64,000 bases of DNA from Rhizobium sp. ICMP 5592. Its GTDB lineage: Bacteria; Pseudomonadota; Alphaproteobacteria; Rhizobiales; Rhizobiaceae. Shown in pieces: positions 21,970 through 24,067 of the stretch. Below the pieces are notes generated by a model, which was not told where the DNA came from, ran no database searches, and worked only from the letters and a program-made list of their open reading frames with translations. The first letter of the stretch is position 1, and each line of letters begins with the position of its first letter. The position numbers and the translations under genes were made by a program. Location: positions 434,001-498,000 of the forward strand of contig NZ_QSNT01000002.1 of assembly GCF_009498525.1 (NCBI RefSeq), given 5' to 3'.

Positions 21970-22033
21970 TGGAAACCGAGCCGGCGGTGTCCGGATTGAC
22001 AGGGACGCTCTCCTGTCTGTATGGAGAATCCAA

Positions 22034-22107
22034 CGGTAATGGATTTCTGCCGGGCCATGGTGGCCGAACCGCTGCTCTGAATTTCCGGAGAAGCTGATGA
22101 CTCCTAC
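22034..22107 (+). ncRNA. Fluoride riboswitch (crcB motif)
   Basis: The aptamer core is recognisable: GGTAATGGATTTCTGCC (22035-22051), a variable hairpin (GGCCATGGTGGCC), the conserved AACCGCT, a second variable hairpin, then AGCTGATGACTCCTAC ending at 22107. ATGGA near the 5' end can form the family pseudoknot with the 3' CTCC. It precedes a CLC-F and a CrcB gene, the two main fluoride exporter types. Binding of fluoride should switch the operon on. Confidence 0.88.
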
Positions 22108-22140
22108 TCAATATGCCCGGTGGGGCGAAGGAGTAGAGTC
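22099..22140 (+). promoter_or_regulatory. Riboswitch expression platform: alternative hairpin
   Basis: GACTC-c-TACTC (22099-22109, one bulged C) pairs with GAGTA-GAGTC (22131-22140). The left arm is the pseudoknot strand of the aptamer, and the right arm holds the GGAG Shine-Dalgarno (22130-22133) of the leader ORF. The two folds exclude each other, which suggests that the free aptamer hides the ribosome-binding site and the fluoride-bound form exposes it. Confidence 0.6.
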
Positions 22141-22221
22141 ATGTCCGCAATCCTCCAACTTTGTTTTATGATCCTTGTCCCCGTCAGGACCGCCGCCGGT
22201 CTTCCGGGAGGGGCGAACTGA
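22141..22221 (+). CDS. 26-codon leader ORF coupled to clcF
   Basis: ATG at 22141 lies 7 nt after GGAG and directly after the expression-platform hairpin. It reads 26 codons ([20 protein letters not shown] then LPGGAN) to a TGA at 22219-22221 that overlaps the clc ATG at 22221. The clc gene has its own GGGAGGGG site within the leader ORF. The layout suggests translational coupling; the peptide itself may have no function. Confidence 0.5.
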
Positions 22222-23624
22222 TGTCGGCATCCGATTTCTTTCATCATCGTTTCCAGCAATTGCGCAGCATATTCAAATGGATCTTCCTGGTAGTGCCGAT
22301 GGCAGCCGTGGTCGGCTCGCTCTGCGCACTGTTTCTTTGGAGCCTCGACCGGGCCACGCGGGCGCGGTTCGACTATCCCTGGCTGATCTTCCTGATGCCG
22401 GTTGCAGGCTTCCTGATGGTGCTGGCCTACCAGCGCTTCGGTCGGGGCGCTGAGGGCGGCAACAATCTGATCGTCGAGCAGATCCATGAACCTGGCGGCG
22501 GCGTGCCGCTGCGCATGGCGCCGTTCATCCTGGTCTCAACCGTTCTGACGCATCTGGTCGGCGGCTCGGCGGGGCGTGAGGGCACGGCGGTGCAGCTCGG
22601 CGGCAGCATCGCCAGCGCCTTTGCCAAGCTTTTCAGGCTGAGCCAAGCTGAAGTCCGTATCCTGCTGATGGCCGGCATCGCCGCCGGTTTCGGTGCTGTT
22701 TTCGGCACGCCGATTGCCGGTGCAGTGTTTGCTCTCGAAGTGCTGACCATCGGGCGCATGCAATATGAAGCGCTGATCCCCAGCCTTGTGGCGGCGATCG
22801 CGGCCGACTGGACCTGCCATGCCTGGGGGATCGAGCACACCCAGTACCATATCGCCTATCTCGCCGGCACACCGGCCAGCACCTTTCATCTCGATGCGCT
22901 GCTGCTTGTGAAGGTCGGCATCGCCGGCGTGCTCTTCGGGCTGATGGCCCGCTGCTTCAGCGAAATCTCCCATATGGCATCGACCGCCTTCAAGCGGGTC
23001 TGTGCCTATGCGCCGTTGCGGCCGGTGATCGCCAGCGTCGTGCTGATCGGTCTCGTCTATGCACTCGGCACGCGCGAATATCTCGGTCTCGGGGTTTGGT
23101 CGCCCAATCCGGGCGATGCGACAATCTTGGACTTCTTCGATCCGGCGCGTACCGACTACTGGAGCTGGTTCTGGAAAGCGGTCTTTACCATTGTCACGCT
23201 GAGTTCCGGCTTCAAGGGCGGCGAGGTGACGCCATTGTTCTTCATCGGTGCCGCCCTCGGCAATGCTATTGCCGCCATTCTCGGCGCTCCGATCGATCTC
23301 TTTGCCGCACTCGGCTTCGTCGCGGTTTTCGCGGGCGCCACCAACACGCCGCTTGCCTGCATGATCATGGGCATCGAACTCTTCGGCGCGACGCACACCG
23401 TCTATCTCGCCGTCGCCTGCTTCCTCGCCTATATCTGCAGCGGCCATACCAGCATCTATTTGTCGCAGCGTATCGGTATGGCGAAGAGCGCTGCCGCCAG
23501 TCACATTCCAGCCGGCGTCCCGCTTCGTCATGTGCGCGAGATCAATGCCAAAGCGCGCGGCGAAGTGACCGGGAAGGTAAGCGGGACGAAAGCGAAAACT
23601 CCACGGAAAGGCTCGAACTCGTAG
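22221..23624 (+). CDS. CLC-F type fluoride/proton antiporter
   Basis: A 467-aa CLC transporter with about ten or more hydrophobic helices. The family GREG motif is in [17 protein letters not shown] (Glu120), and the N-terminal motif reads [12 protein letters not shown] rather than the GSGIP of chloride types, a feature I associate with the fluoride-exporting CLC-F clade. A second helix motif is [20 protein letters not shown]. The riboswitch upstream and crcB downstream support fluoride as substrate. GGGAGGGG precedes the ATG. Confidence 0.88.
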
Positions 23625-23677: not shown

Positions 23678-24067
23678 ATGAATTATCTGATTGTCTTCCT
23701 CGGTGCCGGACTGGGTGGTGTCTTTCGTCTCGGCGTCAATCAGGCGGCCGTCCGCCTGCTCGGCTTCGGATTTCCTTTCGGGACACTCGCGGTCAATATT
23801 GTCGGCTCGCTGATCATGGGATTGCTGACCGAATATTTCGTTCTGCGTAGCGGCCTGTCGCAGGAATTGCGGCTTTTCCTGACCACGGGCATCTTGGGTG
23901 GCTTCACGACATTCTCGAGCTTTTCAATGGATACCGTTGCCCTTTGGGAGCGTGGTCAATGGGGCGCGTCGTTGATCTATGTCGCGCTATCCCTGTTCCT
24001 ATCGGTGGCTGCGCTGATGATCGGGCTTTCGATCGTCCGGCTGCTGGCGCAGGGCCAGACTGCATAA
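23678..24067 (+). CDS. crcB: Fluoride channel CrcB/Fluc
   Basis: A 129-aa four-helix protein that works as a dual-topology dimer. Signatures are GAGLGGVFRLGVN, FPFGTLAVNIVGSLIMGLL (with the conserved Asn) and TTGILGGFTTFSSFSMDT (the Phe-box and Thr/Ser track). It gives passive fluoride exit and complements the CLC-F antiporter encoded just before it (53-nt gap, GGAGGATTCC site). The operon therefore encodes both known export modes under one riboswitch. Confidence 0.93.
   Translation: MNYLIVFLGAGLGGVFRLGVNQAAVRLLGFGFPFGTLAVNIVGSLIMGLLTEYFVLRSGLSQELRLFLTTGILGGFTTFSSFSMDTVALWERGQWGASLIYVALSLFLSVAALMIGLSIVRLLAQGQTA

Follow-up and report, generated by a model that had tools for sequence, protein, structure and literature searches.

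A fluoride riboswitch that may gate a CLC-F exporter gene through an overlapping leader ORF in Rhizobium

Results

Organization of the clc-crcB locus

The window, i.e., the whole 64,000-nucleotide stretch of Rhizobium sp. ICMP 5592 DNA analyzed here, carries a fluoride riboswitch aptamer (crcB motif) at positions 22026–22113 on the forward strand, as are all features described below. It is the only match to Rfam family RF01734 found in the window's own genome. A fluoride riboswitch had been proposed at this site in a first-pass annotation, and the covariance model agrees, with a score of 40.2 bits that exceeds the curated cut-off of 34 (E 1.2e-7). The pseudoknot of fluoride riboswitches usually pairs a loop with the 3′ strand; in the window, we read this pairing as GGAUU with GACUCC, where the third base of the 3′ strand is unpaired and forms either a bulge or a mismatch. 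The aptamer is placed upstream of genes for fluoride handling, namely a CLC-F homologue followed by crcB.

A putative promoter is located at 21996–22024, with a −35 box TTGACA (21996–22001) and a −10-like element TGTATGG (22018–22024) that is weak; a strict sigma-70 promoter scan of the window gave no match. A TTGAC box is present 39–44 nt upstream of the ATGGA core of the aptamer in 81 of 81 loci (the window and the best 80 of 223 related clc loci), compared with 2.3% of random windows that served as control. Because of this invariable box, the aptamer probably sits at the 5′ end of a transcript of its own.

The clc gene (22221–23624) encodes a homologue of CLC-type fluoride/proton antiporters (CLC-F; PF00654, E 1.2e-72). 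The best match among solved structures is a CLC-type fluoride/proton antiporter (PDB code 6d0j, E 1.1e-59), which is far better than the match to ClcA (6e-9), and as judged from these matches the product is therefore CLC-F-like. In Pfam, the protein consists of the CLC domain alone, unlike two plasmid-borne CLC-F proteins of about 605 amino acids (L196:2659–4476 and L197:2660–4474) that also have a C-terminal DUF190 domain. The fluoride channel gene crcB (23678–24067; PF02537, E 1.5e-27; NF010794, 147.5 bits with a cut-off of 125) starts 53 nt after clc in the same orientation.

Between the aptamer and clc there is a leader ORF of 26 codons (22141–22221) that begins with ATG and ends with TGA. 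Its Shine-Dalgarno sequence GGAG (SD1, 22130–22133) is positioned 7 nt before the ATG at 22141 and overlaps the segment GAGTAGAGTC (22131–22140), and its stop codon (TGA, 22219–22221) overlaps the start codon of clc (ATG, 22221–22223) in the form TGATG. The start codons of the leader and of clc are predictions. The clc Shine-Dalgarno GGGAGGGG (22206–22213) is situated inside the leader ORF and is paired in the MFE fold, and a TCCCCG element within the leader (22178–22183) is able to pair with the clc Shine-Dalgarno region. The positions assigned by the first-pass annotation to the aptamer strand, its pairing region, the leader start and the TGA/ATG overlap are correct in both sequence and translation.

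No intrinsic terminator was found between the aptamer and clc in the window, and control by such a terminator was rejected. The only terminator-like match in the scan (22223–22235) falls inside clc. We also discarded the possibility that the leader is the N-terminal part of clc, joined by a frameshift: the leader peptide is not conserved, the clc matches of close relatives begin at residue 1 with the same ATG, and two plasmid records annotate clc from this conserved ATG with no leader listed, in a gene table that describes itself as incomplete.

Leader types among related clc loci

For the relatives, one genome per species was scanned with six peptide patterns, and the sampling thus favors relatives that carry these patterns. 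The best 80 of 223 clc loci were kept and combined with the window to a set of 81, which was classed by a script that required a start codon within 12 nt of the anchor; all start codons were listed for each locus. An overlapping leader of 20–29 codons, out of frame with clc, is present in 58 of these 81 loci, with the leader stop overlapping the start of the clc frame at −1 or −4. Thus, a leader that has its own Shine-Dalgarno and a stop overlapping the downstream start is shared by the window and 57 relatives.

In nine of the 81 loci, which we denote the direct type, the hidden Shine-Dalgarno is followed by a codon that begins the clc frame itself. Sphingomonads, Methylobacterium and Asticcacaulis account for eight of the nine, and L059 belongs here by virtue of an in-frame extension. 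The direct type has the same hairpin, but placed over the clc start, and for this reason the leader in the overlap loci would act as a relay. As a separate observation, the leader region of L059 and of L144 is in frame with clc and free of stops, and forms an N-terminal extension of the clc product; by eye, both still show a hairpin that covers a second ribosome site.

The other loci deviate in different ways. Two come close to an overlap: in L026, a single base separates the stop from the ATG, and in L061, the start is further from the anchor and the stop is located three bases before the ATG, in the clc frame. In a further eleven loci, the leader is out of frame with clc and its end does not coincide with the clc start. 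In one of these (L008), loss of a single base moves the leader stop about 24 bases into clc, and the other ten are Aureimonas-type loci, represented by two sequences, with a leader frame of 102–104 codons. In five of the ten, an in-frame GTG occurs at a distance of 19 nt from the anchor; these five were classed with this group and not as direct. One locus (L063) has no start codon in place.

As for the Aureimonas-type loci (L064–L069 and L071–L074, one of them labeled as a Novosphingobium MAG), they contain nearly just two regulatory sequences across several species names, and the leader frame overruns the clc start by approximately 80 codons. Recent spread combined with a lost stop, or the use of another start, may account for this pattern.

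The background frequency of such leaders was estimated from 119 gene starts preceded by a Shine-Dalgarno, taken from the window and from half (40) of the 80 related loci. A small ORF of 12–45 codons with its own Shine-Dalgarno overlaps the start in 34 of the 119 cases, and 33 of the 34 are clc leaders. Among the other starts, 86 in number and possibly including a few clc starts missed by the stricter filter, there is a single case.

Evolution of the leader

A clc protein tree was calculated with a quick IQ-TREE run (LG+G4), with the leader excluded from the data. Among the window and the best 80 of 223 related loci, the 58 loci with overlapping leaders group with L008 and L026 in a single clade of 60 (SH-aLRT support of 100). 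Similar clc loci are also borne on plasmids, and the clade therefore need not follow species history.

On this tree, the leader has changed length at least 13 times among the 58 overlap loci; the leader of the window has 26 codons where its near relatives L006 and L016 have 29, a difference of three codons. The distance from leader start to clc start is 59, 62, 65, 74, 77, 80, 86 or 89 nt. All these distances are 2 modulo 3 because the overlap class is defined that way, and the informative count is instead that the frame is kept in 58 of the 60 clade loci. A start codon is present behind SD1 in 60 of 60, premature leader stops occur in none of the 60, and the leader ends within −4 to +1 of the start of the clc frame in 59 of 60.

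These counts bear on an alternative in which SD1 would serve as a standby landing site, such that ribosomes arrive at the clc start with the leader left untranslated, a mode that has been suggested for metA. A Sinorhizobium case of this kind is described in the available excerpts of PMC9373788, and the spacing of 59–89 nt in the present loci is similar. A standby site leaves unexplained, however, why a start codon is retained behind SD1 throughout the clade, and why 59 of 60 leaders end on the clc start in spite of at least 13 length changes. On balance, we regard this explanation as unlikely.

A second alternative would place the relay at the level of transcription, where an untranslated leader would allow Rho to halt RNA polymerase before clc, and translation would protect the transcript. 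It is compatible with a leader that is kept and translated, and was also considered by the authors of the ppe2 work, according to the accessible part of PMC11260477. A Rho-dependent relay has no need for exact placement of the stop on the clc start, and appears quite unlikely to us.

The peptide itself shows little sign of being kept. The leaders comprise 49 sequences that are distinct at 90% identity, and the other two reading frames lack stop codons in 31 and 35 of them, respectively; based on composition, 22.4 of the 49 leaders would be expected to be open. The pN/pS ratios for the groups with 29, 22, 20 and 21 codons are 0.76, 0.80, 0.86 and 0.62 (23, 13, 9 and 5 distinct rows, respectively), and the entropy is about equal at the three codon positions. 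Judged from these sequence comparisons, evolution of the leader peptide is almost neutral. The pattern fits selection acting on leader translation and on the position of the stop, and not on the peptide.

A functional leader peptide, e.g., a small membrane protein or a ribosome-stalling peptide, could be supported by several leaders that look hydrophobic by reading, and by pN/pS values somewhat below 1 (0.62–0.86). The leaders have 20–29 residues with little sequence in common between the length groups, entropy is similar at all codon positions, and the peptide in the window has no Pfam or NCBIfam match. Moreover, by reading, the C-terminal residues that do recur are the clc Shine-Dalgarno read as codons. 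We consider a functional peptide highly improbable.

The first-pass annotation had suggested that clc is translated by coupling to the leader. The comparative data lend support to this half of its reading, in that an out-of-frame leader ends on the clc start in 58 of 60 clade loci, and at least 13 length changes combined with a nearly neutral peptide are what would be expected if coupling matters.

The aptamer strand pairs with the leader ribosome site

The 3′ (pseudoknot) strand of the aptamer, GACTCCTACTC (22099–22109), is complementary to GAGTAGAGTC (22131–22140) and forms ten pairs with one bulged C. A strand shared with the aptamer is thus able to pair with a Shine-Dalgarno sequence, as in translational riboswitches. 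The hairpin spanning 22099–22143 has a folding energy of −22.7 kcal/mol, compared with a mean of −10.6 (sd 2.3) for shuffled sequences (z −5.24), and 0 of 200 shuffles were as stable. This pairing had been pointed out in the first-pass annotation, which took it to suggest an OFF fold that hides the leader ribosome site, and the pairing holds up. The OFF fold also gains comparative support from the presence of the helix in all loci read, and from compensatory change: the 3′ strand pairs with the Shine-Dalgarno region in 85 of 85 loci (the set of 81 together with L092, L093, L144 and L149).

For covariation, the alignment comprised 49 of 63 distinct rows, all from the leader clade without L008. 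The first ten bases of the 22099–22109 strand are invariant in these 49 rows, with pairing in 97.1% of the cells of the main helix and 94.9% of those of the entire structure. Covariation scored 0.119, a value that none of 500 shuffles reached (0.094 for shuffles), and slid controls gave 0.021–0.044. Three pairs show two-sided change, a number that was equalled by 32 of 500 shuffles and by several of the slid controls, and these changes fall in the upper stem. RNAalifold applied to the same rows keeps six main-helix pairs, and none of the main-helix pairs has a two-sided change.

Across the classes of loci, the third base of the GANTCC strand forms a C-G pair in 70 of 81 rows and a T-A pair in 8, and is unpaired in 3. 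L078 carries C-G at this pair, although the tree places it among the T-A loci. Read by eye, the pseudoknot loop of the aptamer offers this base no partner, and the change between C-G and T-A therefore follows the OFF helix and not the aptamer.

Predicted energetics of the two ribosome sites

The calculation of opening energies represents the ON state by leaving out the nine bases GACTCCTAC, and the pseudoknot is not part of the model. For the window, the predicted cost of opening SD1 and the start codon is 14.7 kcal/mol with the aptamer strand present and 6.8 kcal/mol without it. The corresponding means for leader-type loci are 13.5 and 6.1 kcal/mol, and the cost is higher with the strand in 56 of 56 distinct loci. 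The direct loci behave alike, with 14.7 kcal/mol with the strand as compared with 5.6 without, and a higher cost with the strand in nine of nine.

Unpaired probabilities give a different picture. For SD1 in the leader-type loci, the mean is 0.24 in OFF and 0.26 in ON, and the ON value is the higher one in 26 of 56, while the mean for the leader start codon falls from 0.68 to 0.51. In the direct loci, going from OFF to ON changes the probability from 0.08 to 0.37 for the Shine-Dalgarno and from 0.48 to 0.29 for the start codon. When the strand is masked in a longer fold of the window, SD1 goes from 0.25 to 0.26–0.28 and the start codon from 0.25 to 0.07–0.10. The suggestion in the first-pass annotation that the ON fold frees the leader ribosome site is therefore borne out by the opening energies (56 of 56), but neither by the mean unpaired probabilities (26 of 56) nor by the masked longer fold. 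Release of SD1 as a rise in mean unpaired probability was accordingly dropped, and in these models the predicted release appears in the opening energies.

As for the second site, the clc start within the leader RNA has a predicted opening cost of 14.4 kcal/mol on average, and of 16.5 kcal/mol in the window; 16.5 kcal/mol or more is needed by 12.6% of the 119 gene starts, with clc starts among them. Occlusion of the clc site does not exceed what composition gives (0.17 as compared with 0.17 in leader shuffles, 56 loci), and the predicted hairpin over the clc Shine-Dalgarno shows no compensatory change. TCCCCG is nearly invariant in 24 rows (the window and 23 close relatives), but in the absence of covariation and of occlusion above composition, we rejected the idea that this hairpin is conserved and forms a second lock at these loci in general. 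Because folding reveals no special occlusion of the clc site, the claim of coupling rests on conservation of the frame and the overlap.

The same results touch on a further alternative, that the leader is incidental and clc is translated from its own Shine-Dalgarno (22206–22213), with the riboswitch acting in another way or weakly. That Shine-Dalgarno is strong and normally spaced, its occlusion does not exceed that in shuffles, and the overlap is missing in the ten Aureimonas-type loci. An incidental leader is difficult to reconcile with a clade of 60 loci in which 59 leaders have their end at −4 to +1 relative to the clc start, and with the occurrence of such an ORF at only 1 of 86 other starts. 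We find it very unlikely.

Fluoride riboswitches and CLC-F outside the clade

Of the genomes searched, 27 of 385 in the class and 57 of 397 in the order contain RF01734 at an E-value threshold of 0.001 (stricter filters). CLC-F, as searched by protein at 1e-60, occurs in 5 of 397 genomes of the order and in 15 of 398 genomes from the phylum. The wider CLC-F search also contains clc loci of beta- and gammaproteobacteria, which were inspected by eye. Riboswitch surroundings were examined at 86 other alphaproteobacterial places, counting L092 and L150 as one and omitting the weak class matches L100–L107 and the six weakest order matches. With tblastn, clc was found within 600 nt at 7 of these places and crcB at 31, with neither of the two at 48. 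A crude pattern of a G+C stem followed by five T is present at 29 of the 86 places, and between the aptamer and clc in 5 of the 80 related clc loci (best 80 of 223).

Eight other places have an ATG-initiated ORF trailing the aptamer (MDKPA..GGFFVA and variants; L090, L128–L131, L133, L134 and L148). We rejected these as leaders, since they are a terminator stem and T run read as codons. Their length is not kept: 12 codons in four, 36 in one, and three that do not end within the stretch read.

Two individual cases deserve mention. By reading, an overlapping leader with a TTGATTG junction seems to be present at L093 (genome G040), a clc locus that does not belong to the order of the window; it is perhaps of independent origin or acquired by transfer. 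Genome G530 has eight fluoride riboswitch matches (L119, L140, L142, L143, L149, L153, L163 and L172), of which seven lie in a 20-kb part of a single contig (C22:157565–176872), possibly a fluoride-resistance island.

Discussion

The aptamer match, the OFF helix and the leader are found together in the window, and each of them is conserved. Our preferred interpretation, which we consider likely, is a translational ON riboswitch that acts via the leader ORF as a relay. In the absence of fluoride, 22099–22109 would pair with 22131–22140 and hide the leader Shine-Dalgarno. With fluoride bound, the aptamer pseudoknot would retain its 3′ strand, such that the leader ribosome site opens and ribosomes translate the 26 codons. 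This translation would melt the G-rich structure around the clc Shine-Dalgarno, and a ribosome stopping at TGA 22219–22221 could restart at the overlapping ATG 22221. The regulation would depend on the leader being translated and on its stop coinciding with the clc start, and the peptide would be irrelevant. Fluoride dependence, leader translation and coupling by reinitiation are thus what we infer for this locus. The eleven out-of-frame leaders that miss the clc start, the start-less L063, and the good Shine-Dalgarno of clc itself speak against such a relay.

In evolutionary terms, we lean toward the view that a single clc clade, mostly from Hyphomicrobiales and partly on plasmids, has turned direct fluoride control into a two-step relay. 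A disposable leader ORF would be gated by the aptamer, kept only for its frame and stop, and linked to the exporter by termination-reinitiation. If so, the clade would offer natural replicates of riboswitch control through a coupled throw-away ORF, and the actual control point may be overlooked when expression platforms are assessed from how far the annotated gene is away.

The closest precedent in the literature, as far as the excerpted text of PMC11260477 goes, is the B12 riboswitch of Mycobacterium tuberculosis ppe2. Similar to the window, that riboswitch controls an out-of-frame uORF with a stop that overlaps the gene start (AUGA); the downstream expression is reported there to require uORF translation, and to proceed mainly by termination-reinitiation. 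The ligand and the aptamer are different, the ppe2 riboswitch is an OFF switch, and the annotated ppe2 ORF is described as having no Shine-Dalgarno, whereas clc has one inside the leader (PMC11260477, same excerpts).

The SAM-II riboswitch of Sinorhizobium meliloti metA, as presented in the excerpts of PMC9373788, provides another parallel from an alphaproteobacterium, where the Shine-Dalgarno of the riboswitch serves a distant start 74 nt downstream. Unlike the window, metA has two in-frame start codons with a terminator between them, and the ligand represses; an overlapping out-of-frame leader is not among the features that these excerpts describe.

Searches of open-licence PMC papers for fluoride riboswitches with coupling, a leader peptide, a uORF, reinitiation or control of translation initiation brought up no such case. 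Transcriptional fluoride riboswitches make competing use of the 3′ strand of the aptamer. They belong to the same aptamer family as the riboswitch in the window, but end in intrinsic terminators; intrinsic termination is examined in a 2026 study that comprises 1901 fluoride riboswitches (PMC13273304, in part).

A further comparison is with the direct-type fluoride riboswitches of the sphingomonad clc loci, which have the same aptamer, the same OFF pairing between the 3′ strand and the Shine-Dalgarno, and an exporter downstream. The direct type hides the start of the exporter itself (9 of 81 loci), whereas the window hides a leader ORF that overlaps the exporter start. The individual parts are already known, and it is their combination that seems new. 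If the relay is correct, its effects on leak, gain, speed and mRNA protection can be measured on these two natural forms of the same switch.
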